A DNA stretch of 64,000 bases from Pseudomonadota bacterium. GTDB taxonomy: Bacteria; Desulfobacterota; Desulfobacteria; Desulfobacterales; RPRI01. This document shows, in pieces, positions 26,886 through 63,735 of this stretch. Position 1 is the stretch's first letter. Each line of letters opens with the position of its first letter. The stretch is from the NCBI GenBank assembly GCA_018817425.1, contig JAHITX010000007.1:1-64000 (forward strand), given 5' to 3'. The position numbers were made by a program, and so were the translations under genes. Below the pieces are notes generated by a model. It saw only the letters and a program-made list of their open reading frames with translations, searched no databases and had not been told where the DNA came from.

Positions 26886-27818
26886 TCAACTAATTACAGG
26901 TCTTGGATAAAGACCTGCACCTTCCACTATTCCCGGGACCTTTTCTTCCCATTCAATAGCCATTACATGAAAACCTTTTACACCTTCAACCTCCTTTAAC
27001 CGCTGGATCGATTCGATACATATCTTTATTCCTTCTTCCGGCTGTCTTTCTTTCGGAGTATCGGACATTCTTTTTACAACCTCATCAGGCACATCCATAC
27101 CTGGAACCCGGTTCTTCATATATTTTGCCATTCCAGCGGACTTTAAAGGTGTAACACCTGCCAAAATATAGACTTTTTCATGCAGTCCTTTTTCACGAAC
27201 CATCTTCATCCACAGCTCAAATTTATCAAGATTGTAAATGCACTGCGTCTGGATAAATTCAACGCCTGCGGCAATCTTTTTGGCAAGGCGCGGAACTCTT
27301 ATCTCAAAAGGATCAGCGAAAGGATTGGCAGCAGCCCCCACAAACATGCTTGGCGGACGCTCTATGTTATCACCTCCTAAAAATTTTCCTTCATCACGCA
27401 TATGTCTTACCGTTTGAATAAGCTGTATTGAATCAAGATCATGCACATTTTGTCCCTGGGCACAATCCCCGAAACTCTGGTGATCTCCTGAAAGGCAAAG
27501 CATATTAACAATATCAAAGGCAGCGGCTCCCAGTATATCGCTTTGCATTGCAATCCTGTTTCTGTCGCGGGTTACCATCTGTAAAATTGGTTCAAGCCCC
27601 ATTAGTTTCAATTTTATGCATGCAGCAAGGCTGCAAAGCCTTGTAACCGATGTTTGATTATCTGTTATGTTGATTGCATCCACATGGTCTTTTATAAGAT
27701 TCGCTTTATTTTCAATATGTGTTATATTGCTGCCGCGCGGAGGGCCACACTCCGAAGTAACGGCAAGATGACCTGCTGCAAGGATTTTTTCCAGTTTGCT
27801 GGGTGTTTTGCAATTCAT
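26886..27818 (-). CDS. metF: Methylenetetrahydrofolate reductase-family protein (MetF)
   Basis: A 310-residue MTHFR TIM-barrel protein. Visible family segments are LAVTSECGPPRG, DAINITDNQTSVTRL, LQMVTRDRNRIAMQSDILGA, CLSGDHQSFGD and EFIQTQCIYNLDKFELWM. In acetogens and sulfate reducers such proteins reduce methylene-THF to methyl-THF in the Wood-Ljungdahl methyl branch, with MetV as a partner. The start ATG at 27818 overlaps the metV stop (ATGA). It is the last gene of the hdrA-mvhD-metV-metF unit, which suggests that its flavin is fed by an HdrA/MvhD bifurcating module rather than directly by NADH. Confidence 0.94.
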   Translation of the reverse strand: MNCKTPSKLEKILAAGHLAVTSECGPPRGSNITHIENKANLIKDHVDAINITDNQTSVTRLCSLAACIKLKLMGLEPILQMVTRDRNRIAMQSDILGAAAFDIVNMLCLSGDHQSFGDCAQGQNVHDLDSIQLIQTVRHMRDEGKFLGGDNIERPPSMFVGAAANPFADPFEIRVPRLAKKIAAGVEFIQTQCIYNLDKFELWMKMVREKGLHEKVYILAGVTPLKSAGMAKYMKNRVPGMDVPDEVVKRMSDTPKERQPEEGIKICIESIQRLKEVEGVKGFHVMAIEWEEKVPGIVEGAGLYPRPVIS

Positions 27819-28483
27819 AACTGCACGTCCTCCCTTGCCACTTTACGGGGTCCTCCGGCTCTATCGGTAGACCAGTCTTTCAAAGGAATAATAGTTTCAA
27901 AATCATCAAGTTTGCCGAGCACCTTTAAACGGTCAACTATCAACTGCCATGCACAGTCAAGCTCCTTGCTTATTTCGCACTTGCCCTTTGTGGAACCGCC
28001 GCAGGGACCGTTTAACAGCCTTTTTGCGCATCTTGAAACAGGACAGATACCCGCTGTTTTTGAAAGAATGCATTTTCCGCAAGCCTGACATCTTTCAGTC
28101 CATAAACCGCGTTTGTCAGTAACGCCTAAAAAGCAGGTATTAACTCCGGGATATACCGGTATGCTCTGATACTTTTCTGCTGTAAACTGAACACCAACCC
28201 CGCAAGCAAGAGATAAAACGGCTTCATATTTATCAACGTTGTCACGTATTTCTTCGAGGTACTCATGATCGCATTGACGCTCTAAAGTAATTTCATCAAT
28301 CTTTACTTCTTTACCTTTATTGAGAAAGTACATTCGAAGAGCTGATGCCAGAATTCCTACTTCTTTTTTGCCGCCGGCCTCACAAACCGTTACGCATTCG
28401 TTGCAGCCCAGTATCAATATTTTATTGTAATTTTTCAGATCCTCGATGATCTCTTCTATCGGCTTTTTATCAGCTACAATCAT
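27815..28483 (-). CDS. metV: MetV, Fe-S/zinc partner of MetF
   Basis: A 222-residue Cys-rich protein of the MTHFR C-terminal-domain family. It starts MIVADKKPIEEI, has GCNECVTVCEAGGKKEV, ERQCDHEY, ACGVGVQF, RCQACGKCILSKTAGICPVSRCAK and NGPCGGSTKGKC. The C-terminal cysteines should hold Fe-S clusters; the N-terminal domain is the MetV fold seen in acetogen MetVF complexes. It passes electrons to the MetF flavin. Its stop overlaps the metF start, and a REP-like repeat separates it from mvhD. A related gene begins at 63788. Confidence 0.92.
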   Translation of the reverse strand: MIVADKKPIEEIIEDLKNYNKILILGCNECVTVCEAGGKKEVGILASALRMYFLNKGKEVKIDEITLERQCDHEYLEEIRDNVDKYEAVLSLACGVGVQFTAEKYQSIPVYPGVNTCFLGVTDKRGLWTERCQACGKCILSKTAGICPVSRCAKRLLNGPCGGSTKGKCEISKELDCAWQLIVDRLKVLGKLDDFETIIPLKDWSTDRAGGPRKVAREDVQL

Positions 28484-28676: not shown

Positions 28677-29111
28677 TTAAGCTGCTTTGTTTTTGGCGGC
28701 AACTTTAATAGGATTCGGACCAAGTTTTCTTATAAGCTCATCTATTTCAATAGCGTACTGTGCAAACCTCGGCCCTTCTGCTGAAGAAAGATTTCTCATC
28801 TGAACCCTTTCTCCTCCTATCCCAATTTTATCAAGGATTTGTTGGGCCTGTTCAATTCTCTTTCTTGCCCTTAGGTTTCCACTGTTGTAATGGCATTCAC
28901 CTTCCATGCAACCTACGGCATATACTCCATCAGCTCCTTTTTCAAAGGCACGCATAATATGAAGTATATCAACTTTTCCGGTACATGGAACACGTATGAT
29001 TTTAATATTGGTAGGATAAGTTAACCTCATGGAACCTGCCAGGTCCGCAGCAGTATAGCCTCAGTAATTACAGCAAAAAGCAATGATAACCGGTTCAAAA
29101 TCCTGATTCAT
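28677..29111 (-). CDS. mvhD: MvhD/FrhD-type [2Fe-2S] selenoprotein
   Basis: Read through the TGA at 29061-29063 (residue 17) this is a 144-residue MvhD-family protein: MNQDFEPVIIAFCCNY-U-GYTAADLAG. Relatives have Cys at that position. The other ligands are VPCTGKVD, VGCMEGECHYNSGN. MvhD carries a [2Fe-2S] cluster and passes electrons from a hydrogenase or dehydrogenase to HdrA. The start at 29111 overlaps the hdrA stop (ATGA). With metV and metF downstream, the likely sink or source is the methylene-THF reductase. Without read-through the start codon region would be lost and translation would restart at an internal Met without a site. Confidence 0.93.
29032..29046 (-). promoter_or_regulatory. 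Bacterial SECIS-type hairpin in mvhD (28677)
   Basis: A 6-bp stem (one G-U pair) closing the loop GGC at +21 to +23 after the TGA. Same sequence core as in the mvhD at 61999. Confidence 0.75.
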
Positions 29112-32100
29112 AGAACTCCTTCCAGCAAGGCTTCAACCTTGCTTAATATCTGATCATCCTCATACCAGTTCAATTCTATGGCCTTTGCCGGACATTCGGC
29201 TGCACACACACCACAACCATGACAAAGAGCAACATCTATTTCGCTCACTCCATCAGCATTGATTTTTGGAACACCATAAGGACAAGACCTTACACATATC
29301 AGACATGATGCGCATTTTTCACCTTCCACATAGGCAGTAACAGCAGAAAGTGTTAGTTGATCCTGAGAAAGGAATGTAGTTGCTCTGGAAGCAGCGGCCA
29401 AAGCCTGAGCAATTGATTCCGAAAGCAATTTAGGACTGTGTGCCGTTCCGCACACAAAAACTCCTTCGGTTGCCATATCTACGGGTTTTAGCTTTACATG
29501 GGCTTCTAACAGATAACCTTCTGCATTTAATGCAAGCTTTACAATGGAAGATAATTCAGTGATATCTGTGGGCCTCATGCCGGAGCTAAGTGCAAGAATA
29601 TCTGCTGAAACCATAAGACGTTTTCCTAAAATATGGTCCTTAAATGTTACCATCAAACCTTCTTCAGTTGACTCTACTTCCGGCATTTCATCAAGAGTAT
29701 AACGGAAGAAGAAAACACCTTTTCTTCTTGCTTCAGTATAATAATCTTCCAGAAGTCCATATGTCCTCATGTCTCTGTACAAAACATAGACATTGACATC
29801 AGGGTCAAGCTCTTTAATGTGGATTGCATTTTTTATAGCGCTCTGGCAACATATTCTGGAGCAATTCGGATTCTCATCATTTCTTGACCCAACACACTGA
29901 ATCATAACAACACTTTCAACTCCTTCGACAGCATTTTCTTCTTCAAGTTTCTGCGCCAGTTCTACCTGAGTAATTACTTTTGGATCTTGTCCGTACAAAT
30001 ATTCTTTTGGGATATACTCATTTGCTCCGGTTGCAAGAATTACAACCCCATGATCGATTTTTCTTTCATACATACCGGGGCCCACAATAACTTCTGTAGT
30101 AAAATTCCCTTTAAACCCGGAGAACCCGACTATAAGAGACTGGGTTAAGACTTGTATTTTAGAATGATCTGATACTTTTTTTATAAGCTCAGAAAGATAA
30201 ACTCCTATCTTTTCTCCCTCAATGGTTGAAGTAAGCCGGTTTGCCATGCCACCAAGCTTAGGTTCTTTTTCAATAATGACCGTTTCAAAGCCCTGGTCCG
30301 CAAGACCAAGCGCTGCATTCATTCCAGATACTCCTCCGCCTATAACAAGTGCCCTTTTATTGACGGGAATTTTCTTTTCATGAAGAGGGTTAAGTGTTGC
30401 AGCCCTTGCAACCGCCATTTTAACAAGTTTTTTTGCCTTTTCGGTTGCCTTAACAGGGTCATTGGAATGAGCCCATGAATCCTGATTGCGTATATTTGCC
30501 ATTTCAAATAGATATTTATTCAAACCACAAGCTTCAAGGGTATCCATGAATATTCCTTCATGGGTTTTAGGCGTACAAGCCGCAACAACAACTCTGTTAA
30601 GCTCTTTCTCTTTTATAATCTCTTTCATCCTGTCTTGAGAATCCTGGGAACAGGTAAAAAGATTATTTCCCGTAAAAACCACATAAGGAAGGGTAGAAGC
30701 AAATTCAGCCAAATTATTTATATCTACCACACCGGAAATATTTACACCGCAATTGCAAACAAATACTCCTACTCTGGGGTCTTTTCCGGTTAAATCAATT
30801 TCATCAGGTATAAGGACTGTTTTTGTTCTTGTGCCTCTTGCCGCATCAAGCCTGCCTCCAGCAGCACATGCAGCAGCGCTTGCTTCTGTCACTGAACTTG
30901 GAATATCCTTTGGGCCCTGAAAAATTCCGCAGGCATATACTCCCTGTCTTGATGTTTCAACAGGTGTGAAAGGTTTATTTTTGGCAAAACCGTACTTATC
31001 TACATCTATATTTAGCCGTTTTGCAAGATCAAGCGTGGATTGCGGGATTTTAAGGCCTACAGAAAGCACAACCATGTCAAATTCTTCTTCCTGCATCATG
31101 CCCGATTCATCCGCATATTTTATTTTAAGATTTTGACTTTCTTTAACCTCCTCCAAAGTGTGAACGCGCGCTTTTATAAAACGGACTCCGTCTTTGTCTT
31201 TTGCTTTGTTGTAATACTTCTCGTAATCTTTACCAAATGTGCGCATATCCATATTAAATACAGCACAATCAAGGTTGCCGTGTGAATGCTCTTTTGCAAT
31301 CATTGCTTCTTTGACTGCATACATGCAACATACGGAAGAACAATAACCGTTTCCGCATTTATTGTTATCTCTTGAACCTATGCATTGAAGCCATGCGATT
31401 TTTTTAGGCTCTTTATTATCACTCAGCCTTACAAGATGCCCCATTGTTGGGCCCGATGCGCTTAATATTCTTTCAAATTCAAGGCTGGTCATCACATTCG
31501 GACTTGTCTTATAATGATAATGTTCATCAAGAGATGATGGATCAAAAGTATCGGTTCCCGGGCAAAGTATTACAGAACCTACCTCTATTTGTTTTTCAAC
31601 AACACTCTGGCTGTGATCGACAGCTTCTGCAAGACAGGCATCTACGCACTGGAAGCATTCACAGCAGTAACCGCAGTTAAGACACCTTTGGGCTTCAGCT
31701 TTTCCTGCTTCTTCACAAAAGCCAAGCTCAACTTCCATAAAATTACCGGCCCTTTTTTCAATGGAAAGCTCCGGCATTTCAGCTCTTGTTTTTATGGGTT
31801 CGTTCTCAGGAACCGGCCTGTATATTGGATTTTCGTTTGTAATTGGTTCCCGGCCTTCGGACATATCTTTTCCATCAAGATATCTTACAATCGACTCGGC
31901 TGCTTCTTTTCCTGCTGCAATTGCTTTAATAGCCGTAGCAGCACCTGAAACAGCATCACCTCCTGCAAATATATTCGGAAAATTTGTCTGAAAGGTAACC
32001 GCATCAACTGCTATTGTTCCTTTTTTGCCGATTTCAAGTTTTATCGGCAGTTTTGATTTATCAACATTTTGACCAATAGCTATTATTACTTGATCAGCAT

Positions 32101-33538
32101 CTAAAATAAATTCTGACCCCTCAATCGGTATGGGACTGCGTCTGCCGCTGCTGTCCGGTTCTCCAAGTTCCATGCGGATACAGCGTAATCCTGTAGCCCT
32201 TCCTTCCGAAGTCAAAACCTTATCAGGTGCGGCAAGATAGGTTATTTCAGCACCTTCGGTTTCAGCAGCATGAATCTCTTCTTCCCATGCAGGCATTTCG
32301 GCGCGGGTTCTTCTGTATATTATATTGACCTTTTCGGCTCCAAGCCTTGCGGCGCATCTTGCAACATCTATGGCGACATTGCCGCCGCCTATGATAGCAA
32401 TATTTTTGCCTACTTCCGATTTTCCGGTAAGGTTTACTTCCCTTAAGAAATCGACACCCTGTCGCACTCCTTTTGCTTTTTCTCCGGAAACGCCAAGATC
32501 AAAACCTTTGTGCGCGCCGATCGCTATATAAACGGATTTATAACCTTCAGAAAACAGGTCTTCTACAGTCAGATCAGGGCCAAGAGGAGTATTGGTTTTA
32601 ATTTCAACGCCAAGATTTGTTATTACCTCTATTTCATTGTCAAGAACATCTCTGGGAAGCCTGTGCTCCGGTATGCCGACCCTTAACATACCTCCGGCCC
32701 TGGGAAGTGCTTCGAATATGGTGGAAAGCACACCTTTACGGGCAAGGTGATATGCAGCAGAAAGTCCCGCCGGACCTGACCCTATAATAGCGACTTTTTC
32801 ATCTCTTTTGGAAAGAGTTTTGATCTTGATTTGCCTCGGATCGAATTTATCCGCGGCAAGCCTTTTGAGATTGCGTATTGCAACAGGATGATCCACTTCA
32901 CACCTGCGGCAGGAGTCCTCGCATCCGTGAGGACATATTCTTCCAAGAACACCCGGTAAAGGCAAATCCTCCATAATTATCTGAAGGGCTTCTTTATATT
33001 TACCCTGACCAACCATCTGGACATAGCCCTGAACATTAAGTCCTGCCGGACATTCAAGCCGGCAAGGGGCTTTATCGCTTTTCCGGATAGCATAAGCTCC
33101 TGGAATAGCCTGCGCGTATTGCTTATAAGCGGCTTTATTCACTGAGAGGTTTTCATCATATTCATTGGATAAGACTACAGGACAGACCTTTGTGCATTCG
33201 CCGCAACTTGTACATTTTGAAAGATCTATAAAACGAGGATTTTGTTTTACTGTCGCCTGAAAGCTTCCCTGTTCTCCTTTAAGTTCAAGGAGTTCGGAAT
33301 TCATCAGAAGTTCAATGTTCAAATGCCGGCCGACCTCGACCAGTTTAGGAGAAATTACTCACATCGCACAATCATTTGTAGGAAATGTCTTGTCAAGCTG
33401 CGACATGAGACCGCCGATGGCGGATGTTTTTTCAAGCAGATATACATAATATCCGGAATTAGCAAGATCGAGAGCGGACTGCATTCCTGCGATTCCACCT
33501 CCCACAACCATAACAGATCCAACGATTCGTTCAGCCAT
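29108..33538 (-). CDS. hdrA: HdrA selenoprotein with inserted GltD/NfnB-like module
   Basis: Read through the TGA at 33359-33361 (residue 60) this is 1,476 residues. N-terminal FAD turn [14 protein letters not shown], then [18 protein letters not shown], where other HdrA have Cys. A [4Fe-4S] motif CTSCGECTKVCP follows. At about 150-540 sits a GltD/NfnB-like unit: [32 protein letters not shown] (FAD), [16 protein letters not shown] (NAD(P)H). HdrA core: [38 protein letters not shown] second HdrA half follows (VFVCNCGVNISG, VIGGGVSGMNAALGLA) and C-terminal ferredoxin sites CASCLICVRSCP and CHGCGVCAAECP. Likely the flavin-bifurcating core for MetVF, with NAD(P)H as one partner. AGGAG precedes the ATG at 33538. 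Confidence 0.94.
33326..33343 (-). promoter_or_regulatory. Bacterial SECIS-type hairpin in hdrA (29108)
   Basis: A 7-bp stem CTGGTCG/CGGCCGG with two G-U pairs and loop AGGT at +23 to +26 after the TGA. The 18 bases are identical in all three hdrA genes of the window. Confidence 0.8.
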
Positions 33539-36789: not shown

Positions 36790-37347
36790 TTGAATATAGA
36801 TTCCAAACATAAAATCATCATTTCTCCTATCGGAAATATTGATGCAAAAATAATCGGGTCTGTTAAAAAGGTGATAAGCCATAGATTCGGTTTTCAGGCT
36901 ATGGTTAAACCATTGCTTGAAAATATCGGTTTTGCTTTTGATCCGGGCCGGAATCAGCATAATTCTACATCGATTTTAGGAAAGCTGGAAAGCTGTGCAC
37001 CTGAGTATGCACTCAAAGTTCTTGCCGTAACCGATGTAGATCTATTCATTCCTATACTGACACATGTATACGGAGAAGCCCAGCTCGGGGGAAGAACCTC
37101 TATAGTATCGATATACAGGCTTAAAGATTGCCTCTCAGGAATCAGAGAAAGTATTTCATTACCGGAAAGAATTGTCAAAGAAGCAATCCATGAACTTGGT
37201 CATACATTCAATCTTCTGCATTGCAAAGATCATTCATGTATAATGCATTATTGCCGGACAGAGAAAGATGTTGACCGGAAATCGGATCAGTTGTGCAGGT
37301 ACTGCAAAATACTTTTAGATGATGAGATTAAAAGATTAAGACCGTAA
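36790..37347 (+). CDS. Archaemetzincin-like zinc protease
   Basis: A 185-residue protein with the zinc site HELGHTFNLLHC, the following CKDHSCIM and, 16 residues on, CRYC: the archaemetzincin order HEXXHXXGXXHCX4CXM...CXXC. The Gly of the metzincin turn is replaced by Asn, and the second half has four Cys for a structural zinc. The N-terminus IIISPIGNIDAKIIGSV fits the family. Start: TTG 36790, 10 bases after the regulator stop; no ATG upstream of residue 38 gives the N-terminal strand. Substrate unknown. Its 3' end overlaps the convergent GcvH-like gene by 12 bases. Confidence 0.82.
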   Translation: MNIDSKHKIIISPIGNIDAKIIGSVKKVISHRFGFQAMVKPLLENIGFAFDPGRNQHNSTSILGKLESCAPEYALKVLAVTDVDLFIPILTHVYGEAQLGGRTSIVSIYRLKDCLSGIRESISLPERIVKEAIHELGHTFNLLHCKDHSCIMHYCRTEKDVDRKSDQLCRYCKILLDDEIKRLRP

Positions 37348-38259
37348 AAATAGCTGCGTTAGTTTCTCCCAGCCAAGTTGCGGTATATTACCGTAAATAT
37401 TTTCGGCAAGAAAGCCTCCGTCGGTATTTAAAAGCTGACCGGAATTTTCGATAGCTTTGTAAAGAACATCTACTTCTTTTTTCATGAATTCCTTTGATTG
37501 ATCGGCAATGTAAAGGTTCTTTATGTCATCTTTTAATTTTTCAGAGTGAACTCTTAAAATCCAGCCGTCAGTATAAGGATTTTTTCCGGCCGGCATTGCA
37601 TCCTCTCTTAATTTAGGATTGATGTCTGTTACCACTCCACTAACAGGTGAAAGCAAAGTTGCACAGCGATTGCCGCGTTTTATGGTAATCTGCGATTTGT
37701 TCTGTATCAGCTGTTTTCCAATAAGTGGAGCTTCAATTTGTTCAAGCGGACCGAATACTTTAAGTGCAAAATCATCAAGTCCTATTCTTACGGTTTTTCC
37801 TTCTTCAATCTTGACCCATGCATGTCCTTTATGAAGATAATAGCCCTGAGGAATTTTGAATCCCTGAACATTTAATACTTCAACCGGGTTAACAGTTGCA
37901 TGAACAGTATATTGATCAGAAAAATACTGGTCGAACTCACAATTTACGCACATATAATCATGCCCGCAGGGCTTGAAATCTATCCGGCCTTTCATATGGT
38001 GTATGCATGGTCTTTTTGATACAGGTAAATCTTTCAGCTTTTCCATCCAGTGTACAATGTTTTTATGCTTTTTACCTTTGGCAGTACTTTTTCCGGCAAT
38101 ATTTTTGTTTGTATCTGCCATATCAGTCATGGTTATATCATATTGGCAGGTCGCACAGTTATATAAAGCATTACAATTCTTTGAGCGAACAACTCCGGCC
38201 TGCATCCATACACAGGGGGAGCTTTTTTTGTTTTCTTTATTTAATCGGAGAGATTCCAT
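37336..38259 (-). CDS. Cys-rich protein with GcvH-like lipoyl domain, paralogue 1
   Basis: A 307-residue protein. Residues about 15-125 hold two Cys clusters, CVWMQAGVVRSKNC...YNCATCQYD and CIHHMKGR...CGHDYMCVNCEFDQYF, likely metal sites. Residues about 145-265 resemble glycine-cleavage H protein (GYYLHKGHAWVKIEEGKTVRIGLDDFALKVFG; later LLSPVSGVVTDINPKL; NPYTDGWILRV). The lysine that carries lipoate (VKAAS in GcvH) is not in place; the aligned residue is Asn. So it probably is not a lipoyl carrier of glycine cleavage. Function unknown. A paralogue lies upstream at 38661 on the same strand. Confidence 0.8.
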   Translation of the reverse strand: MESLRLNKENKKSSPCVWMQAGVVRSKNCNALYNCATCQYDITMTDMADTNKNIAGKSTAKGKKHKNIVHWMEKLKDLPVSKRPCIHHMKGRIDFKPCGHDYMCVNCEFDQYFSDQYTVHATVNPVEVLNVQGFKIPQGYYLHKGHAWVKIEEGKTVRIGLDDFALKVFGPLEQIEAPLIGKQLIQNKSQITIKRGNRCATLLSPVSGVVTDINPKLREDAMPAGKNPYTDGWILRVHSEKLKDDIKNLYIADQSKEFMKKEVDVLYKAIENSGQLLNTDGGFLAENIYGNIPQLGWEKLTQLFLRS

Positions 38260-38660: not shown

Positions 38661-39650
38661 TCATGTTTTAAGAAAAGTTTTTGTAAGATTACTCCAGTCA
38701 AGACCCGGAAGATTTCCGTAAATATCTTCCATAAAATAGCCGCCATCAGCTGCAAGAGGTCCGGCGACATCTTCCACCATTCTTTCAAGCGCAACTACTT
38801 CTTCACTTATCCATCCGAGACTATTCGTATCATCCATAAGCTGTTTAACCGTTTTCTTGATGTCCGGTGAACGCACCATAAAGAGCCAGCCGTCTCCATA
38901 AGGTTCACGGTTTGCAAGTTCGGGTTTTTCCCTTACATCGGCATTTACTTCAACTATTACACCATCAACCGGAGAAAGAACATCCGCCTTGTTATCTTTG
39001 CGTCTTAATCCCCAACCGGCTGCTCCCTGATCAAGTTCTTTTCCCATTAGCGGAAGGTCAAACGCATCGGCTTTGCCTAATAATTTTAAAGAAAAATCGT
39101 CAAGCCCGATTCTGATAAATCCTCCGCTTTCAATTCTTGCCCATGTATGGCCGTTATGGAAATAATAACCCACGGGAACATCAAAGCCTTTTACCTGTTG
39201 GATTTCGCCGGGCATTGCCTTGTTTTTGGTTGTCCAGACATCTTCAAAAAACTGGTCAAAATCGCATGTTGCACATTTATAATCATAGGCGCAGGCTCTC
39301 TTTTCAATCCTGTTTGTAAGGCTGTGCCTGCAAATCCTGTTTAAATAAGGCTTTGTTCTCATTGCATCCTGCCAGCTGATGCTGTTTCCTTTTTCTACTT
39401 TTTTACTCATGCCAAGATCATATTTGCATGTGGTACAATCATAAAAATTATTACAATCTTTAAAATTCACAAGGCCGGCCTGCATCCATATACAGGGATT
39501 GGTTGTATGCGCGCTTTTGTCAGGTTTTACCATCCAGGTCTGTCCTCCCAAAACGGTTTTTATTTCGGTTGGATTAGTTTCTTTAGTATTACCTTTTCTG
39601 TAAGTAGATCCATATCCCACTTTGCTTCTTTGCTCTTTTTGACTTGCCAT
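38661..39650 (-). CDS. Cys-rich protein with GcvH-like lipoyl domain, paralogue 2
   Basis: A 329-residue paralogue of the 37336 gene with the same build. Cys clusters are CIWMQAGLVNFKDCNNFYDCTTCKYD and CRHSLTNRIEKRACAYDYKCATCDFDQFF. The GcvH-like part is VPVGYYFHNGHTWARIESGGFIRIGLDDFSLKLLG, then DVLSPVDGVIVEVNADV and EPYGDGWLFMV. The lipoyl-lysine position again lacks Lys (aligned residue Asp, with lysines two and five positions off). Both end in a shared tail (DGGYFMEDIYGNLPGLDW). A good sigma-54 promoter lies 67 bases upstream, so the NtrC-type regulator at 35440 is the likely activator. Function unknown. Confidence 0.82.
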   Translation of the reverse strand: MASQKEQRSKVGYGSTYRKGNTKETNPTEIKTVLGGQTWMVKPDKSAHTTNPCIWMQAGLVNFKDCNNFYDCTTCKYDLGMSKKVEKGNSISWQDAMRTKPYLNRICRHSLTNRIEKRACAYDYKCATCDFDQFFEDVWTTKNKAMPGEIQQVKGFDVPVGYYFHNGHTWARIESGGFIRIGLDDFSLKLLGKADAFDLPLMGKELDQGAAGWGLRRKDNKADVLSPVDGVIVEVNADVREKPELANREPYGDGWLFMVRSPDIKKTVKQLMDDTNSLGWISEEVVALERMVEDVAGPLAADGGYFMEDIYGNLPGLDWSNLTKTFLKT

Positions 39651-53737: not shown

Positions 53738-56700
53738 ATGGGGGCTGTTAAAGGAAACAAAAGCGGGTCGGTAATGATTGTCGGTGCAGGTATTACAGGT
53801 ATGCAGTCTGCGCTTGATCTTGCCGAGTCCGGTTATTACGTTTATCTTGTGGAAAAATCCGCTGCCATCGGCGGGCTAATGTCGCAGCTTGACAAGACCT
53901 TTCCGACAAATGACTGTGCGATGTGAGTAATCTCACCTAAACTGGTCGAGGTCGGCCGGCATCTTAACATCGAGCTTTTAACAAATACGGAACTTCTGGG
54001 ACTTGAAGGAGATCCTGGTAATTTTAAAGCAAAAATAAAACAAAATCCACGTTATATAGACCTTTCCAAATGTACGAGCTGCGGAGATTGTTCCAAAGTC
54101 TGTCCAGTTACACTACCTAATGAATATGATGAAAGCCTTTCTGTAAGAAAAGCCATTTATAAGCAATACGCACAGGCTATCCCCGGAGCATACTCCATAC
54201 AGAAAACCGATAAGGCCCCGTGCAGGCTTGCATGTCCGGCTGGTCTTAATGTTCAGGGTTATGTTCAGATGGTAGGCCAGAGCAAATATAAAGAGGCCCT
54301 TCAGATCATTATGGAGGATCTGCCTTTGCCCGGAGTTCTTGGAAGAATATGCCCTCATGGTTGCGAAGACGCCTGTCGCAGGTGTGATGTGGATCATCCT
54401 GTTGCAATACGCAACCTCAAACGACTTGCCGCGGATAAATTTGATCCAAGAAATGTTGAGATCAAAATGCTTCCCAAAAGGGAAGATAAGGTTGCTATTA
54501 TTGGATCAGGTCCGGCAGGTCTTTCCGCCGCATACCAACTTGCGCGAAACGGAGTGCTTTCTACCATCTTTGAAGCTCTTCCCAAGGCTGGTGGCATGTT
54601 AAGGGTTGGCATACCTGAACACAGACTTCCAAGAGACGTTCTTGATAATGAAATAGAAGTAATAACAAACCTTGGGGTTGAAATTAAAACAAATACCCCG
54701 CTTGGCTCTGATCTTACCATAGATGACCTTTTTGCCAAAGGTTATAAATCCGTATATATAGCAATCGGTGCACACAAGGGTTTTGATCTTGGTGTTCCAG
54801 GAGAAAAAGCCAAAGGAGTCCGTCAGGGTGTTGATTTCTTAAGAGAAGTAAACCTTACGGGAAAGGCACAAGTCGGTAAAAATGTTGCGATAATCGGCGG
54901 CGGTAATGTTGCCATAGATGTTGCAAGATGCGCCGTAAGGCTTGGAGCCGAAAAGGTCAATATAATTTACAGAAGAACCCGCAGTGAAATGCCTGCATGG
55001 GAAGAAGAAATTCATGCCGCTGAAACCGAAGGAACCGAAATAACATATCTTGCAGCACCTCAGGAAATATTGACTGCAGATGGCAATGTTATAGGTCTGC
55101 GATGTATTCGTATGGAGCTTGGAGAACCGGATTCATCAGGAAGAAGAAGACCTGTTCCTGTTCCCGGAAGTGAATATGACATTGAGATAGATCAACTTAT
55201 ACCTGCGATAGGCCAGAAGCCGGATTTGTCCGCACTTGAAAATGTGACCGGTTTAGACTTTTCTAAATGGGGAACAGTTGAGACTGATTCCGTGACTTAT
55301 GCTACCGGCCGGGCAGGTGTTTTTGCAGGTGGTGATGTTCAAACAGGTCCTTGGGTTGCCATAGGGGCAATTGCAGCCGGAAAAGAAGCAGCCGATTCTA
55401 TAATGAGGTATCTGGACGGAAAAGACATGGCCGAAGGCCGTGAGGCTGTGACAAATGAAAATCCTGTTTACAGACCTGTGCCTAAAGGCGAGCCCATTAA
55501 ATCGAGAGCTGTAATGCCTGAACTTTCTGCTGAAAAACGGGCAGGTAATTTTAAGGAAGTCGAACTTGGCTATAATGAAGAAGACGGAGCCGCTGAAGCA
55601 GGAAGATGTCTTAACTGCGGTTATTGCTGCGAGTGTAATCAGTGTGTTGACGCCTGTCTTGCAGGTGCTGTTGATCACAGCCAGAAAGTTGAAGAAAAAC
55701 AAATTGATGTTGGTTCCGTAATACTATGTCCCGGAGCCGATACTTACGATCCTTCATCTCTTGACGAATTCTATCATTATAAGACCAATCCTAATGTACT
55801 AACCAGTCTTGAATTTGAAAGATTACTTAGCGCATCAGGCCCCACAATGGGGCATTTACTCAAACCGTCCGATAAGAAAGAACCTCAAAAAATTGCATGG
55901 CTTCAATGTATAGGTTCAAGAGATAACAACAAATGTGGAAACGGTTACTGCTCGTCTGTATGCTGCATGTATGCCATAAAAGATGCGATGGTTTCAAAAG
56001 AACATGCCAATGGCGATCTGGATTGCGCAATATTTAATATTGATATCAGAACTTTTGGCAAAGATTACGAAAAATATTATGACCGTGCTAAAGACGAACA
56101 AGGTGTAAGATTTATTAATGCCCGTATTCACACGATTGATGAAGTTGGAGAAGAAAAAGCTTTAAAGCTTCGTTATGCTGATGATTCTGGCCAGATTCAG
56201 GAAGAAATATTTGACATGGTTGTTCTTTCGGTTGGTCTTCAGGTGTCTGAATCTACAGTGGAGCTTGCAAAAAAACTTGATGTGGATATTAACAAAAATA
56301 ATTTTGCCGTCACAAAACCTTTTGAGCCGGTCATGACATCAAGGCCCGGGGTTTATGCCTGCGGAATATTTCAGGGACCTAAGGATATCCCTCATTCGGT
56401 TATGGAAGCAAGTGCTGCGGCATGTGGTGCCGGGATTAGCCTTACATCTTCGCGGGGTACTTTAGTAAAAGACAAGATTTTCCCGGAAGAAATAGCATTA
56501 GCGGATCAACAACCGCGTGTAGGTGTTTTTGTATGCAATTGCGGAATCAACATCGGCGGAGTTGCAGATGTTCCTGCAATCGTCGAATATGCAAAATCAT
56601 TACCTGGAGTGGCGCATGTTGAGGATAACCTTTTTTCATGCAGCAATGACACCCAGGACAAAATAGTAGAAGTTATCAAGAAAAATAACTTAAACCGGAT

Positions 56701-58168
56701 TGTGGTTGCAGCATGTACTCCAAAAACACATGAACCATTGTTTCAGGAAACTATTCGCAACGCAGGGCTTAACCCTTATTTGTTTGAAATGGCCAATATC
56801 AGAAACCAGTGTACATGGGTTCATTCGAATGAAAAGGAAAAAGCTACTCAAAAAGCCAAAGACTTATTAAAAATGGCGGTTTCCAAGGCCGCACTCTTGG
56901 AATCTATACCTGATATATTGGTAGATGTTGAAAAATCAGGCTTGGTAATAGGCGGTGGTGTTGCCGGAATGACTGCAGCTTTATGTTTGGCCGATCAGGG
57001 TTTTTCTACAACTCTGGTTGAAAAATCAAACGTTTTAGGAGGTTCTGCACAAAATCTAACAAAAACATGGGATGGCCAGGATGTCAGGACATTTCTTTCC
57101 GAAAAAATACAAAAAGTGGAAAATCATCCGAACATCAATCTGTTGCTTGATGCAGAAGTAAAAGATGCTTCCGGCTTTGTCGGTAATTTTGAAACGAACG
57201 TAGTGGCGAATAACACGCAACATACAATTAAGCATGGTATCACTATTATTGCAACAGGCGGAAAAGCGGCGGTTACAGATGAATACCTTTACGGGGAGCA
57301 TCCATCCGTTACTACCTGGCATGACCTCGAACATCAGCCTGAAAAATTGAAAGATGCAAATAGCATAGTATTTATTCAATGTGTCGGATCACGTGATGAA
57401 AACAGACCTTATTGTTCTATGATCTGTTGTACTTCAGCTATTTCTCAGGCTGTTTCTATAAAGGAAGAAGATCCTGATAAGGATGTATTTGTCCTGTATA
57501 GAGATATAAGAACATATGGAGAAAAAGAAGAATTATATAAAAAGGCCAGAGAGAAAGGTATAATTTTTATTCGCTATAAATTAGACAAAAAACCTTTGGT
57601 TAAAGCGGCTGGCAAAGGTTTGGAAGTTACTGTATTTGACCCTGTCCTGCAAAGAAGCGTTCAGATACAGGCGGATTTAGTCAATCTCTCGACAGCTATT
57701 GAACCTATGGAAAATGATGCTTTGGCGTCCGTTTACAAATTGCCGCTTAATGCCGAGAAATTTTTCATGGAAGCACACGCAAAATTGAGGCCGGTTGATT
57801 TTGCGACAGAAGGTCTTTTTATCTGCGGATTAGCTCACTATCCCAAACCACTGGATGAATCCATTTCTCAGGCATATGCCGCAGCCGGTCGGGCTGTTAC
57901 CATTCTTTCAAGGAATACAATCACAATTTCTCCTCTGGTATCTCAGGTTGATGCCGAAAAGTGTATCGGATGCGGTCTTTGCGCTGAAATTTGTCCCTTT
58001 GGAGGAATTGTAATGGAAGACCCTGAAGGTAAAGGACAAAAGGCAAAAAATATACCTGCATCGTGCAAAGGATGTGGTTTGTGTTCGGCAAGCTGTCCGC
58101 AAAAAGCTATTGACATGTTGCATTTCAGAGACAAGCAAATAATGGCTGCGGTAAATGCTGCCGTATAA
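53738..58168 (+). CDS. hdrA: HdrA selenoprotein with inserted GltD/NfnB-like module
   Basis: Read through the TGA at 53924-53926 (residue 63) this is 1,476 residues, the same length and domain order as the minus-strand hdrA at 29108. Sec lies in [30 protein letters not shown] comes next. The inserted module has [15 protein letters not shown] (about 180), [17 protein letters not shown] (about 255), [16 protein letters not shown] (about 385). HdrA core Fe-S motifs: [17 protein letters not shown] and [20 protein letters not shown]. Second half: [28 protein letters not shown], and ferredoxin sites [12 protein letters not shown] and [12 protein letters not shown]. Followed after 30 bases by mvhD. 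First gene of a large plus-strand operon. Confidence 0.94.
53942..53959 (+). promoter_or_regulatory. Bacterial SECIS-type hairpin in hdrA (53738)
   Basis: Stem CTGGTCG/CGGCCGG with loop AGGT, +16 to +33 after the TGA; identical to the other two hdrA. Confidence 0.8.
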
Positions 58169-58198: not shown

Positions 58199-58948
58199 AT
58201 GACAGATTTTGAACCTAAAATAGTTGCTTTTCTATGCAACTGGTGTGCTTATGCCGGAGCTGATCTGGCAGGGGTGTCACGAATACAACACCCTTCCAAC
58301 TTAAGAACGGTACGTGTAATGTGTTCCGGGCGTGTAGATCCGCTATTTATTGTTCAGGCATTAAAAAAAGGGTCTGACGGTATTTTGGTGGCCGGCTGAC
58401 ATTTCGGCGACTGCCATTACCTGGAAGGTAATATTCAAGCTGAAAAAAAGATTATTATGACCCAAAAACTTCTAAAGCTTTCCGGCATCGGGGAAAACAG
58501 GTTGCATCTGGCCTGGCTGTCCTCTGCTGAAGCTCAGAGATTTGTTGATATATCCACAGCAGCTATAAATAGCATTAAGGAACAGGGTAAATTTGAACCG
58601 GCTATGTATGAACTTGAGCTGGGTGCTGTGGAAGAAACTTTAAAATCCGAAACAATACGCTGGATGGTCGGCAAAGAAGTTAAATTGCTCACCAAGGGCG
58701 ATGTTTACGGCCGAAAATGGGAAAGAGAAAAATTTGAATCTGTTCTGGATTCCGTTCTGGATAGAGAATACAAAATTCGTCTGATTCATCAGGCGATAGC
58801 TGCCGGGTTTACATCTGTCAGAGGGATAAGCAGCAGAATCGGGATGGAGATGAAAGAAATTTCCTATCTTCTGGCAGACATGGAAAAAAGCAGCATGGTC
58901 GAATTTAAAGGCCATGAGGGCAGCATTCCGGTTTTCGGAGCATTATAA
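58199..58948 (+). CDS. mvhD: Extended MvhD-type selenoprotein
   Basis: Read through the TGA at 58397-58399 (residue 67) this gives 249 residues. It starts MTDFEPKIVAFLCNWCAYAGADLAG, where the first Cys pair is normal, and the Sec is in the second pair: ILVAG-U-HFGDCHYLEGN, where relatives have GCHPGDCHY. So a different cluster ligand is Sec from that in the 144-residue copies. The C-terminal 115 residues (VKLLTKGDVYG, AIAAGFTSVRGISSRIGMEMKEISYLLADMEKS) are an extra helical domain resembling a winged helix. ATG 58199 is chosen by homology with the two short copies; ATG 58187 is also in frame. Between two hdrA genes. Confidence 0.9.
58416..58432 (+). promoter_or_regulatory. Bacterial SECIS-type hairpin in extended mvhD
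   Basis: A perfect 7-bp stem (ATTACCT with AGGTAAT) and loop GGA at +24 to +26 after the TGA. Confidence 0.8.
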
Positions 58949-58975: not shown

Positions 58976-61900
58976 GTGGCAACGGATAAAGGTAAAATCA
59001 GCGGGTCTGTTATGGTGGTTGGCGCCGGTATTGCTGGCATGCAGGCATCGCTGGATCTGGCAAATTCAGATTACTATGTGCATCTTGTAGATAAGTTGCC
59101 GACAGTCGGCGGCATGATGGCCCGGCTGGATAAGACATTCCCGACCAATGACTGTGCGATGTGAGTTATCTCACCTAAACTGGTCGAGGTCGGCCGGCAT
59201 CTTAATGTTAATAAAATTACAAACAGCGAAATAAAAACGGTTGAAGGTGAACCGGGTAATTTTACAGTTACTCTTGTTAATCATCCCCGATATATTGATC
59301 CTGTTAAATGTACGGGCTGCGGAGAATGCGCCCGTCATTGTCCTGTCACAGCAGTCAACCGCTACAACAAGGGGCTTGATGAACGCAGAGCAACCTATAT
59401 TGAATATCCCCAGGCAGTTCCGCTTGCATTTGGCATCGACACTGAAACTTGTATCGGCTGCGGCCTGTGTGAAAACATGTGCGTTGCAAAAGCTATCTGC
59501 TACGACGATGTTGAGCGTGAATCCACACTAACTGTTGGATCAATAATTCTTGCATCCGGTAGCCAGGGATATGACCCTTCCAAACTGGATTTTTTAGGTT
59601 ACGGTAAGTATCCCAATGTAGTTACCAGTGAAGAATTCGAGCGTATCTTGAGTGCATCAGGACCTTATCGTGGACATCTTTGCCGTCCGCTTGACCGTGA
59701 AGAACCGAAAAAAATCGCATGGCTGCAGTGTGTCGGCTCCCGTGATACCAATAAATGCGGAAACGGTTACTGCTCGTCCGTATGCTGCATGTATGCGATC
59801 AAGGAAGCCATGATAGCAAAAGAACATGTGCATGGCGAACTTGACTGTGTAGTATTCAATATGGATATCCGTTCTTTCGGCAAGGATTATGAAAAATACT
59901 ACCTAAGGGCCAAAGACAAAGATGGCGTAAGATTTGTTAAAGCAAGGATTCATACGATTACGGAAATTCCCGAAACAGGCGATCTTTCTGTACGATTCGT
60001 AAATGAAGCGGGAGAAATTCTTGAAGAAATATTCAACATGGTGGTTCTGTCCGTTGGCCTCCAGATTCCCGAAACATCAAAAGTACTGGCAAAACAACTG
60101 GGGATTGAGCTGAATAAATACAATTTTGTTACCACAGATCCATTTACACCGGTTATTACTTCACGTCCCGGTGTTTATACCTGTGGTGTATTTCAGGGCC
60201 CAAAGGATATTCCAAGTTCCGTTACTGAAGCAAGCGCAGCTGCCTGTATGGCAGGTGGTGATCTTGTGGAGGCCCGTGGCACTGAAACTAAAGCTATTGA
60301 AATCCCTGATCAACAGGATGTAGCTGAACAAACCCCTAGAATCGGAGTATTTGTCTGCAACTGCGGTATCAATATCGGCGGAGTTGTCAATGTTCCTAAA
60401 GTTACCGAATATGCAGGAACTCTTCCTTATGTGGTTTTCACAGATCACAACCTTTTCACCTGCTCTCAGGATACTCAGGATAAGATCAAGGAAAAGATCA
60501 TTGAGCATAAGCTTAACCGGGTGGTCGTAGCATCATGCAGTCCAAAAACTCATGAACAGATGTTTATGGAAACCTTAGAGGCATGTGGCCTGAATCGTTA
60601 TCTGTTTGAAATGGCAAATATACGAAACCATAATTCATGGATACATTCCAAGAGTCCTGAACTTGCTACACAGAAAGCAAAAGATCTGGTCAGGATGGCA
60701 ATCGCCAGGTCTGCTACTTTGAAGCAATTGAACGAAAAAGTCATTTCAGTCAATAAGCAGGCTCTTGTTATCGGTGGTGGTATTTCCGGAATGAATGCCG
60801 CGCTTGGTCTTGGGAAGCAAGGATTCAAGGTGTTTTTGCTGGAAAAAGAATCTGAGCTGGGCGGCTTTTCCCTCAAACTTCACCATACTATTGAAGGAAA
60901 AGATGTTAAAACATATATAAAAGAACTTATAGAACAGGTTCAGCAAAATCCAAATATTGAAGTTATTACTAAAGCGCGTGTAACCGATTTTGCAGGATAT
61001 AAGGGAAATTTCACAACTGAAGTAGCTGTCGGAGAAGAAAAGCAAAAGCTTGAACACGGCATTATTATTGTTGCAACCGGCGCCAAAGAATATATCCCAA
61101 TTGAATATTCATATAATGAAGATCCACGTGTAGTAACACAGGTTCAGCTTGGAGATATCCTGGAAGATAAAGGAGCCGCAGAACTTGATTCTGTTGTAAT
61201 GATCCAATGCGTTGGTTCCAGAAACAAAGAAAATGAAAACTGTTCCAGAATTTGCTGTCAGAATGCAGTTAAAAACTCCTTGGCGATAAAAAAATTGAAT
61301 CCCGAAACCAATGTTTATGTGCTTTACAGGGATATCCGCACATATGGACTTTTAGAAGAATATTATACTGAAGCAAGAAATCTGGGAGTTATCTTCATCA
61401 GGTTTGATGAGGATCATCCTCCTCAGGTGGAACCTTCTTCCGAAGGAATGATTGTAAAAGTAAAAGACCATATTCTTCAAAAAGATCTTGAAATACGTGC
61501 TGACCTTTTGGCGCTAAGCGCTGGAATGGTTGCAGAAGACACAACCGAGCTTTGCGGAATAATGAAGTTTAACCGCAATCCGGAAGGATTTTTTATTGAA
61601 GCGCATGTTAAGCTGAGACCTGTTGATATGCCGGGTGAAGGAATTTTCCTGTGCGGTACTGCTCACGGGCCAAAACTGATAACCGAAGCAATTGCTCAGG
61701 CCCAGGCTGCTGCATCCCGCGCAACAACATTTCTTTCCAAGTCTCATATTAAACTGTCGGCAATTACAGCACAGGTGGATACGGAACATTGCGTGAAATG
61801 CCTTACCTGTGTCCGGTCTTGTCCGTTTGAAGTACCGGTCTTTAATACTGAAAAACAGGTTATTGAAATAGATGACGCCATCTGCCATGGTTGCGGTGTG

Positions 61901-61999
61901 TGCGCAAGCGTATGCCCAAGGCAGACCATTCAGCTTAATTTTTATGAAGATGATCAAATTACTAGCAAAATTGATGCCTTGCTGGCAGGGGGAATGTAA
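58976..61999 (+). CDS. hdrA: HdrA selenoprotein without the inserted module
   Basis: Read through the TGA at 59162-59164 (residue 63) this is 1,007 residues. N-terminal VVGAGIAGMQASLDLA and [18 protein letters not shown] match the other HdrA. Instead of the GltD-like unit it has two ferredoxin motifs, CTGCGECARHCP and CIGCGLCENMCV. Core: [20 protein letters not shown]. Second half: [47 protein letters not shown], and C-terminal CVKCLTCVRSCP and CHGCGVCASVCP. It is therefore a more usual HdrA size. GTG start at 58976 with AAGGAG at 58965. Its stop overlaps the next mvhD. Confidence 0.94.
59180..59197 (+). promoter_or_regulatory. Bacterial SECIS-type hairpin in hdrA (58976)
   Basis: Same 18 bases as in the other two hdrA, at +16 to +33 after the TGA. 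Confidence 0.8.
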
Positions 62000-62433
62000 T
62001 GTCTGACTTTGAACCAACTATTATTGCGTTTTGTTGCGAGTACTGAGGATATTCTGCTGCGGACCTGGCAGGTTCGATGCGGCTGGATTATCCTGTAAAT
62101 ATTAAAATCATACGGGTTCCCTGTACCGGAAAAGTGGATGTCATGCACTTGATGAGATCTATACAGATGGGCGCTGACGGCGCTTATGCTGTCGGCTGTC
62201 TGGAAGGGGCATGCCATTATAAACAGGGAAATTTACGTGCCAGGGAACGGGTTATGCACGTACAGAAACTTTTGGAAGAGGTTGGACTTGAAGGGGACAG
62301 AGTAAGGATGTATAATCTTTCTTCAGGCGAGGGACCTACCTTTGCAGCATATGCAAAAGAGATGACTGAACATATAAAGAAGCTTGGGCCTAACCCATTA
62401 AAAAAATGGTCAACAGCCAAAAATAAGGAGTAA
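61999..62433 (+). CDS. mvhD: MvhD/FrhD-type [2Fe-2S] selenoprotein
   Basis: Read through the TGA at 62044-62046 (residue 16) this is 144 residues, equal in length to the minus-strand mvhD. MSDFEPTIIAFCCEY-U-GYSAADLAG carries Sec in place of Cys; VPCTGKVD and VGCLEGACHYKQGN give the remaining ligands. The ATG at 61999 overlaps the hdrA stop (TAATG), and hdrCB follows after 3 bases. It should link a dehydrogenase partner to HdrA. The residues after 120 (LGPNPLKK) match the other short copy, so the two are recent paralogues. Confidence 0.93.
62060..62076 (+). promoter_or_regulatory. Bacterial SECIS-type hairpin in mvhD (61999)
   Basis: A 7-bp stem (CGGACCT with AGGTTCG, one G-U pair) and loop GGC at +21 to +23 after the TGA. 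Confidence 0.75.
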
Positions 62434-62436
62434 ACT

Positions 62437-63735
62437 ATGGCGGAAGAAGCAATCAAACTTGGCGGTAAAAAGAAAAGTATGTTTATAGACAAAGTCAAGG
62501 AAATTCTCCCTAAAGGGGGTAATCTTAATCTTTGTCTTACCTGTGGAGCATGTTCATCAGGATGTCCTGCGACAGGGCTTGAGGGCATGGATCCAAGGAA
62601 ATTTTTGCGCATGGCGGCACTTGGCATGGATGAAGAGTTATTAAAGAGCGATTGGGCATGGATGTGTACTATGTGCATGCGTTGTATTTATGTATGTCCA
62701 ATGGAAATTAATATCCCACAGCTTGTTTTCAATGTCAGGAACAGCTGGCCCAGAGAGAGTAAGCCAAAAGGAATTCTTGGTTCATGTGACATGGCCTTAA
62801 GAAACGATACATGCAGCGCTATGGGTGCAACCGAAGAAGACTGGCGTTTTGTAGTTGAGGACGTTGCCGAAGAGGTAAGAGAAAGCCAGGAGGGTTTTGA
62901 AAATCTTCAGGCTCCTATGGATAAGGTGGGCGCTGAGTTCTTTTTAAATCAGAATTCCAGAGAGCCGGTAACGGAACCGGACGAGATGGTTCCTTTATGG
63001 AAAATACTTCACCTGGTTGGTGCGGACTGGACTTACGGTTCAAAAGGATGGGCTGCTGAAAACTATTGCATGTTTATGGCAGAAAATGAAAGCTGGAAAC
63101 ACATTGTCGAGGTTAAAGCCAAAGCTGTGGATGATTTAAAGTGCAAGGTCTGGCTCAATACGGAGTGAGGGCACGAACTATTTGCAGTCCGGTCCGGACT
63201 GGCAAAATTCAATATTCCTTATAATTTTGAGATAAAAAGCATCATTCAGTATTATGCACAGTGGATCAGGGAAGGAAAGCTTAAGGTTAATTCTGATTGG
63301 AACAAAGAGCTTCAAGTCAAATTTACTGTTCAGGATCCATGCCAGCTTGTTAGAAAAAGCTTTGGTGACCCAGTTGCCGAGGATTTAAGGTTTGTTGTAA
63401 AATCTGTTGTAGGAGAAGAAAACTTTATTGATATGACTCCTAACAAGTCGAACAATTACTGCTGTGGTGGTGGTGGTGGTTTTCTGCAATCAGGACGTCC
63501 CGATGCCAGACGTACTTATGGTAAACTAAAGGATGAGCAAATCAAGAAGACCGGAGCCACATATTGTATAACTCCATGTCATAATTGTCATGCTCAGGTT
63601 CATGATCTATCGGAGCATTTTGAGGGCGGATATCATACGGTTCATTTATGGACCATTATATGCCTTTCTCTTGGCATTCTTGGTGAAAATGAGCGCGAAT
63701 ACTTAGGACCGGATCTTGCTGAATTAGGGTTATAG
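62437..63735 (+). CDS. HdrC/HdrB-fusion selenoprotein
   Basis: Read through the TGA at 63166-63168 (residue 244, the same number as in the 11274 copy) this is 432 residues. HdrC part: CLTCGACSSGCP and CTMCMRCIYVCP. HdrB part: DPCQLVRK, NNYCCGGGGGF, CHNCHAQ. Sec lies in NTE-U-GH. It should be the terminal Fe-S subunit that links the HdrA/MvhD unit to a thiol or quinone-side acceptor; which one is unknown. AAGGAG precedes the ATG. Part of the plus-strand hdr operon, 52 bases before metV. Confidence 0.92.
63185..63201 (+). promoter_or_regulatory. Bacterial SECIS-type hairpin in hdrCB (62437)
   Basis: A perfect 7-bp stem (CAGTCCG with CGGACTG) and loop GTC at +24 to +26 after the TGA. Confidence 0.8.

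Follow-up and report, generated by a model that had tools for sequence, protein, structure and literature searches.

Which carrier feeds electrons to an HdrA that holds a GltD-type unit inside it, and on behalf of which enzyme, is the question raised by two genes in a 64,000-nucleotide stretch of a Desulfobacterales genome (positions 1 to 64,000 of contig JAHITX010000007.1, assembly GCA_018817425.1; the whole stretch is called the window below). An earlier note on this DNA had described a complete 390-residue GltD/NfnB-like segment near the N-terminus of the HdrA gene at 29108–33538 (HdrL1), the same arrangement at the same length in the gene at 53738 (HdrL2), and NAD(P)H oxidation and HdrA-type bifurcation on one chain. 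The electron partner of Hdr-type methylenetetrahydrofolate reductases (MTHFRs) of acetogens, syntrophs and sulfate reducers is unsettled in the literature, as far as our search reached. HdrL1 is probably the redox hub of such an enzyme (HdrL-MvhD-MetV-MetF); the bacterium has dissimilatory sulfite reductase and the Wood–Ljungdahl pathway, and electrons would take the route proposed below.

The HdrL1 frame (33538..29108, minus strand) is open from ATG to TGA and gives 1,476 residues once the in-frame TGA at codon 60 is read through; HdrL2 (53738..58168, plus strand) likewise gives 1,476 residues, with its in-frame TGA at codon 63. Without read-through, the two open reading frames are listed as 1,404 and 1,299 amino acids. 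Thus the equal lengths given earlier are correct, provided that one TGA is read through in each gene. The architecture computed here is as follows (FAD, flavin adenine dinucleotide; TrxR, thioredoxin reductase).

29108..33538, minus strand: HdrL1, tandem HdrA with a GltD-type insert and a predicted selenocysteine (Sec60); stop codon TGA at 29108-29110
33083..33538, minus strand: first HdrA half, N-terminal part (residues 1-152), with the FAD turn, predicted Sec60 and the first [4Fe-4S] motif, C109/112/115/119
31685..33082, minus strand: GltD-type cassette (residues 153-618), with Fer4_20 clusters, FAD fold, NAD(P) fold and a trailing NF.EV...EA.R segment
32753..32797, minus strand: cassette FAD turn GSGPAG (residues 248-262)
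32288..32389, minus strand: NAD(P) turn GGGNVA and the end of beta-2, YRRTRAEMPA (residues 384-417; YRR = 408-410)
30824..31684, minus strand: first HdrA half, remainder (residues 619-905), with C619/C622, the second [4Fe-4S] motif C625/628/631/635, E689 and K743
29111..30787, minus strand: second HdrA half (residues 918-1476), with an N-terminal cluster domain, a TrxR-like fold without the inserted ferredoxin, and a C-terminal 2x[4Fe-4S] domain
53738..58168, plus strand: HdrL2, arranged as HdrL1, 1,476 amino acids, predicted Sec63
54203..55606, plus strand: HdrL2 GltD-type cassette

Both a domain search and an AlphaFold model, which the earlier note had proposed as checks, find the GltD-type unit. 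Pfam places Fer4_20 at residues 146-233 and Pyr_redox_2 at 248-543 of HdrL1 (149-236 and 251-548 of HdrL2), and the GltD-like NCBIfam model PRK12771 matches HdrL1 with 579 bits and HdrL2 with 571, passing its cut-off of 516. Solved HdrA chains align in four blocks, corresponding to the N-terminal part of the first half, the remainder of that half after the insert, and the N-terminal and C-terminal parts of the second HdrA. A model of HdrL1 residues 1-1150 (pLDDT 89.3, pTM 0.80) superimposes on 8rwn_A, a modelled 428-residue HdrA chain, with a TMt of 0.95 over 896 columns and the insert as a gap, and on the full-length HdrA chain 5odc_A with a TMt of 0.62. In a genome scan the order N-part, GltD, middle part occurs in one frame at 70 of 80 loci, these being the best 80 of 479 and the list therefore enriched for close matches; the downstream counts given below are drawn from these 70 HdrL loci. 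Full-length copies were found in 12 of 21 genomes searched, this one included, which has four, and the record titles of scan loci and other tree rows carry 13 different NCBI phylum labels, mostly those of metagenome-assembled genomes and taken as given.

Where same-genus proteins carry different inserts, their identity breaks at about residues 153 and 618 of HdrL1, and for this reason we set the foreign segment at about 466 residues rather than the 390 first described. Across 55 homologues the invariant cysteines are, in order, positions 60 (Sec or Cys), 109, 112, 115 and 119, then 159, 163, 202, 206, 210, 619 and 622 of the insert, and then 625, 628, 631 and 635. With Sec taken as Cys, all 89 rows of our larger alignment keep these 16 positions, and also C928, C930 and C963 of the second half, while C988 is kept in 87. 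From this order it follows that the insert lies between the two [4Fe-4S] motifs (C109-C119 and C625-C635) of HdrA's inserted ferredoxin domain, which refines its earlier placement between the first ferredoxin motif and the HdrA core.

The insert has a GltD fold (mean pLDDT 92.2 and pTM 0.90 for a model of HdrL1 residues 146-660), but in detail the label NfnB-like is not supported. Its top structural match is 9bov_A of NfnABC (Z 49.5, 475 residues, root-mean-square deviation 2.0), with 8oh5_C, the StnC chain, at Z 47.8 over 494 residues and two 9n5 chains at Z 46.1 and 45.5; these four StnC/NfnABC chains thus match at Z 45.5-49.5 over 475-495 residues, the trailing EA.RCL.C segment included, while three NfnB/NfnL chains reach Z 37.4-38.7 over 393-405 residues. 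By sequence, too, the best matches are StnC of Sporomusa StnABC and NfnA of NfnABC (8oh5, 9bov, 9n5u). StnC is reported to have an NADPH-binding GltD domain with a lysine at the proximal cluster (PMC10482914), and it is fused to a NuoG/FdhF-like body where the window insert is fused to HdrA. NfnB/NfnL (4ylf, 5jca) shares the GltD fold, FAD, two [4Fe-4S] clusters and NADP(H), but as published it has a bifurcating FAD, and a Glu cluster ligand where the HdrL1 insert has K225. By alignment the two are also permuted: the NF.EV...EA.RCL.C segment opens NfnB and closes the HdrL1 insert. The phylogeny of the insert against NfnB, also proposed earlier, places the window row together with HdrL and shorter HdrA inserts in a starred clade (99*), has StnC/NfnA in a second clade, and sets NfnB in a clade apart, with the deep forks left without resolution. 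Derivation of the insert from NfnB is therefore not supported. Elsewhere in this genome the NfnABC/StnC clade is represented by two GltD modules that are 98% identical (G000:C7:67853-69310 and G000:C82:4-1449). At loci L134 and L071, both on 13,671-base contigs and probably one record, the GltD unit is matched as two overlapping pieces, which suggests a frameshift.

Both window copies carry the FAD turn GSGPAG, the second dinucleotide turn GGGNVA and YRR at the end of beta-2, so the turns reported earlier are present, as are, at the sequence level, putative NAD(P)-contact residues in the second dinucleotide fold, whose lack the earlier note had named as refuting its reading. YRR also occurs in the aligned StnC and NfnB. 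The residue at the end of beta-2 serves generally in Rossmann folds as a reader of NAD versus NADP, and it is calibrated here in one genus, by Moorella stamsii. Position 410 is R in 61 of the 89 rows, E in 26 and F in 2, and the E410 class, which has LE at this site, includes M. stamsii. NADH oxidation, with viologen, has been reported for M. thermoacetica HdrA or its complex (PMC9430772, PMC7325909). Taken together, YRR in the window copies, LE in M. stamsii and this reported NADH use predict a preference of HdrL1 and HdrL2 for NADP(H). A published rule that assigns GXGXXG to NAD and GXGXXA to NADP fails to split the two classes, since A389 is invariant in A1, reaches at least 90% in A2 and is present in M. 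stamsii, whereas residue 410 does split them. In two HdrLs (L098 and L123) MIDPFS stands in place of YRR or LE, and lacking an NAD(P) signature their insert may no longer bind nicotinamide.

The published marker of the bifurcating HdrA flavin is the pair E356/K409, and its counterparts in the first half of HdrL1, E689 and K743, are kept in 89 of 89 rows. Sequence and model thus support an NAD(P)H-dehydrogenase unit and an HdrA flavin with the bifurcation-type pair on one chain, as had been proposed, though without the detailed likeness to NfnB.

The in-frame TGA of HdrL1 falls at codon 60, which in an ungapped alignment corresponds to Cys197 of HdrA 5odc.

33359..33361, minus strand: HdrL1 in-frame TGA, codon 60, aligned with Cys197 of HdrA 5odc
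33324..33343, minus strand: HdrL1 core of a hairpin of the bacterial selenocysteine insertion sequence (SECIS) type, CTGGTCGAGGTCGGCCGGCA
53942..53961, plus strand: HdrL2 SECIS-type core

Over the 89 rows this codon is TGA in 35, TGC in 31 and TGT in 23. Beginning at the sixteenth base after the TGA, 20 nucleotides are identical in all 35 TGA rows, every third codon position included, and form a 7-bp hairpin in the alignment; the exact element occurs in none of the 54 Cys rows, where third positions are about 46% conserved on average. It is this third-position contrast with the Cys rows that carries the evidence for the element, as the stem is invariant and so shows no covariation, and the fold energy of single sequences against shuffles is weak (z -0.82 for HdrL1, not significant; z -2.14 for HdrL2, modest). 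The exact element occurs five times in the genome and its reversed pattern not at all, Rfam gives no matches in the window at gathering scores, and selB and tRNA-Sec each exceed their cut-offs in the genome. We conclude that TGA-60 very likely encodes selenocysteine at the HdrA Cys197 position. A published description (PMC9012536) has Cys197 ligating the N-terminal cluster of the partner HdrA, and as this partner is here the second half of the same chain, Sec60 is likely to ligate that cluster intramolecularly. Further in-frame TGA genes in the window are MvhD1, MvhD2, MvhD3, the insert-less HdrA and two HdrD-type genes. Two more exact SECIS-type cores lie outside the window, at or near HdrA-like matches (G000:C47:7059 and G000:C123:40948).

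The genes that flank HdrL1 and HdrL2 are the following.

28677..29111, minus strand: MvhD1 (FlpD), in-frame TGA (putative Sec17) at 29061-29063; its start overlaps the HdrL1 stop
27815..28483, minus strand: MetV (MTHFR C-terminal family, DUF5981)
26886..27818, minus strand: MetF, methylenetetrahydrofolate reductase (Pfam MTHFR)
58199..58948, plus strand: MvhD2 (FlpD domain plus extension), in-frame TGA at 58397-58399
58976..61999, plus strand: tandem HdrA without GltD insert, in-frame TGA at 59162-59164, SECIS-type core at 59180-59199
61999..62433, plus strand: MvhD3, in-frame TGA at 62044-62046
62437..63735, plus strand: HdrD-type gene (HdrC-HdrB fusion), in-frame TGA at 63166-63168

HdrL1 and MvhD1 overlap through ATGA and are followed by MetV and MetF, an order repeated at three same-genus loci (L049, L050 and L052); at a fourth, L066, the contig ends within HdrL. 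HdrL2 is followed by MvhD2, the insert-less tandem HdrA, MvhD3, the HdrD-type gene and MetV at 63788, with MetF just past the window. At least 2.5 kb of downstream sequence is available at 48 of the 70 HdrL loci, and within 6 kb these have MvhD in 46 cases, MetV in 20, MetF in 19 and an HdrD/HdrC-like gene in 13. MetV lies downstream at 10 of 14 LE loci and 10 of 34 YRR loci, as raw counts uncorrected for kinship. With MvhD, MetV and MetF downstream of it, the 29108 gene most plausibly belongs to an Hdr-type MTHFR, and the gene order suggests that it is the redox subunit. In the same genome dsrA, CdhC of carbon monoxide dehydrogenase/acetyl-CoA synthase (CODH/ACS) and formate-tetrahydrofolate ligase each exceed their cut-offs. 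Within the window another HdrD-type gene, at 11274-12593, has an in-frame TGA at 12003-12005 and is 72% identical to the 62437 gene; it is a possible trans partner of the 29108 operon.

In the scheme that we propose for HdrL1, NADP(H) would exchange hydride with the GltD FAD, and electrons would run through four [4Fe-4S] clusters, two in the GltD unit and two in the HdrA inserted ferredoxin domain, to the first HdrA flavin (E689/K743). One branch would leave this flavin via the [4Fe-4S] cluster in the N-terminal domain of the second half, which probably has Sec60 as its fourth ligand, and the other would pass via the second flavin and the C-terminal ferredoxin domain to MvhD, with MetVF interconverting methylene- and methyl-tetrahydrofolate. 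We infer this path, together with its direction, the NADPH preference and the partners; the computations themselves show the architecture, the conserved ligands, the Sec codon with its RNA element, the operon and the insert fold.

Several observations weigh against assigning HdrL1 this role. No activity is on record for it, and both the HdrA2 model, which matches piecewise around the insert with 925 and 965 bits under a cut-off of 1,100, and the HdrA profile fall below their curated cut-offs. In the second half HdrL1 has A1195/K1236 and HdrL2 has Glu/Ser, so that neither keeps the full E/K pair that Moorella is reported to have there. The insert sits in what has been published as the ferredoxin docking domain, which leaves no evident third, low-potential partner. 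Neither hdrBC nor hdrD lies beside the 29108 operon, the HdrD-type gene at 11274-12593 being the nearest in the window, whereas relatives of the same genus (L050, L066) and order (L055) have HdrD after MetF. Finally, the 6 kb downstream give no MetV match at 28 of the 48 flanked loci, and HdrL is thus not exclusive to MTHFR.

Other readings of the fused gene were weighed against this one. If it were a relic or an assembly chimera, the in-frame TGA that breaks the HdrL1 frame would mark a pseudogene. But homologues have TGA or Cys codons at this very position, the 20-nucleotide element follows the TGA rows and no others, and selB and tRNA-Sec are present, so that we give this reading practically no credence; chance or assembly artefact is ruled out by the full-length copies in 12 of 21 genomes, the 70 of 80 loci (best 80 of 479) and the TGA/Cys alternation at codon 60. 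It is also improbable that the GltD flavin is a second bifurcating site as in NfnB, which would place two such sites on each chain, as has been suggested for ANME-1 HdrA with NfnB-like insertions (PMC9012536). R293, the counterpart of NfnB R201 and StnC R239, is indeed kept in 89 of 89 rows, but an arginine of this type is also present in StnC, whose FAD is reported to be non-bifurcating and whose proximal cluster is ligated by Lys K170 where NfnB has Glu (PMC10482914). HdrL1 residue 225 aligns with K170 and is K in 66 rows, H in 20 and R in 3, never Glu, and the best structural match of the insert is likewise to StnC/NfnABC. A relay flavin is therefore expected in the insert, and from these alignments we consider a relay, rather than a second bifurcating site, the most likely role of the GltD flavin.

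It is conceivable, though we think it unlikely, that NADP(H) instead replaces ferredoxin as the low-potential partner, with methyl-tetrahydrofolate electrons entering via MetVF/MvhD and then being split. One share would go to NADP+ by way of the inserted ferredoxin domain and GltD, the other via HdrD to an acceptor of higher potential (DsrC or menaquinone). The redox potentials behind this scheme are background values. The insert does sit in the domain whose published role in HdrABC is to pass low-potential electrons to ferredoxin, HdrD follows MetF in some relatives, and dsrA and CODH/ACS are in the genome. Against this, NADH is reportedly the donor in the acetogen Moorella, and both the direction of the pathway in this organism and the coupling to DsrC or quinone are assumptions of the scheme. 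Were it true, an acetate-oxidising sulfate reducer could make NADPH from methyl-tetrahydrofolate.

The insert and the HdrA shell of HdrL1 have different histories. Compared with two same-genus proteins (L029 and L017), HdrL1 is 69-84% identical over residues 1-152, 33-56% over 153-618, 73% over 619-640 and 68-83% over 641-800. HdrL2 and L039, its contig-40 paralogue, are 80-100% identical over the insert and 61-79% ahead of it; past the insert identity is 95% at 619-640, then 83% and 68% up to residue 800, and 50-62% beyond 801, a gradual fall which indicates that the shared block of this pair extends past the insert end. We compared an insert tree with a shell tree (HdrL1 residues 1-152 plus 622-900), these being of the 'quick' type, supported by SH-aLRT only, with some rows long and L112 with L133 flagged for long branches. 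The YRR/LE class changes 3 times on the insert tree and 13 times on both the shell tree and the second-half tree; starred branches force at least 3 changes of the LE group on the insert tree and at least 6 on the shell tree. In approximately unbiased (AU) tests, forcing the 15-row LE insert clade on the shell data costs 248 log units (p-AU 1e-173) and forcing the 26-row shell clade on the insert data costs 891 (p-AU 1e-59), each group being a 100* clade in its own data. Congruence is thus rejected both ways, and conflicting trees for adjacent parts of one gene imply recombination or repeated insertion. As an observation apart, HdrL1 residues 451-560 (31859-32188) form a mosaic piece that is 60-61% identical to HdrL2, L014 and L039 where residues 176-450 are 85-92% identical, with DNA identity falling to 55-60%.

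From these comparisons we lean towards the view that the GltD unit is an exchangeable nicotinamide cassette in a fixed socket between HdrA's two ferredoxin-type clusters, which would have been replaced as a block between shells many times, switching between NADPH (YRR) and NADH (LE) while the rest of the protein, and in MetVF-linked cases the operon, was kept; the socket would be the former ferredoxin dock, with NAD(P)H replacing ferredoxin as partner. The 13 LE changes on the shell tree compare with a shuffled mean of 22.8 and were as low in 0 of 500 shuffles, so class is not independent of shell. On the tree, 17 rows of insert-less tandem HdrAs lie between inserted proteins; the point tree needs 4 changes for them, of which starred branches force 1. 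This makes loss followed by re-insertion into empty shells as possible as replacement, and with unresolved deep forks the data are compatible with one origin of the insert or several. As far as our search reached, neither insert exchange nor two cofactor classes in one socket has been described. If the insert sets the nicotinamide carrier and swaps as a block, partner choice would be readable from one motif, and the cassette would be a case of a bifurcating hub gaining a new carrier with its core unchanged.

The GltD-in-HdrA arrangement itself is already in print, as HdrL in 2009, Moorella HdrA in 2022 and type III HdrA in 2025. This published fusion lies beyond the earlier note, as do the tandem second HdrA half (918-1476), the read-through TGA with its predicted selenocysteine and the MvhD-MetV-MetF operon. 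The name HdrL was given in Desulfobacterium autotrophicum to fusions of heterodisulfide reductase with glutamate synthase; two of the three contain selenocysteine and each lies beside mvhD (Strittmatter et al. 2009, PMC2702500). HdrL1-HdrL3 of this sulfate reducer, strain HRM2, resemble the window copies in the GltD-type unit fused in HdrA, in Sec (in their HdrL1 and HdrL3; predicted for the window copies) and in the adjoining mvhD, but going by that description HRM2 HdrL1 is followed by mvhD and dsrABC, with formate dehydrogenase genes at other Hdr loci, whereas the 29108 gene is linked to metV-metF. Moorella HdrA, at about 1,487 amino acids, has a ferredoxin plus TrxR-like domain interrupted by GltD and a second TrxR half without the inserted ferredoxin (PMC9430772). 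The HdrA of the M. thermoacetica Hdr-type MTHFR thus has the same domain order, with mvhD and metVF in its cluster (PMC9430772), but that cluster as described also holds hdrB and hdrC, and there are none beside the 29108 gene; an HdrD-type gene is found in the 53738 cluster. The M. stamsii homologue has LE and Cys where the window copies have YRR and a predicted Sec, and in Moorella the E/K pair is reported in both TrxR-like halves, while HdrL1 and HdrL2 have it in the first half only. A precedent for the 29108 locus is Thermacetogenium, in which hdrA is described with metFV and without hdrBC (PMC6895022). Archaeal HdrAs with a GltD/NfnB-like insertion have also been described, with NADPH or NADH proposed as partner (PMC9012536, PMC12054007). 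In the type III HdrA of ANME-1 and Bathyarchaeota the insertion likewise lies within the inserted ferredoxin domain (PMC12054007, PMC9012536), but these proteins, nine sequences as described, are single, type I-like HdrAs with an insert, assigned to NADH by the GXGXXG rule, whereas the window copies are tandem and have GGGNVA (GXGXXA) instead.

Elsewhere in the window, an RloB-like gene and an AAA_21 ATPase gene at 46458-48400 match AbiLii and AbiLi in PADLOC and are likely a phage-defence pair; beside them a 915-amino acid open reading frame (43439-46186) has no Pfam or PADLOC match at E 0.001. Two adjoining genes, at 37336-38259 and 38661-39650, encode long glycine cleavage H-domain proteins of 307 and 329 amino acids.

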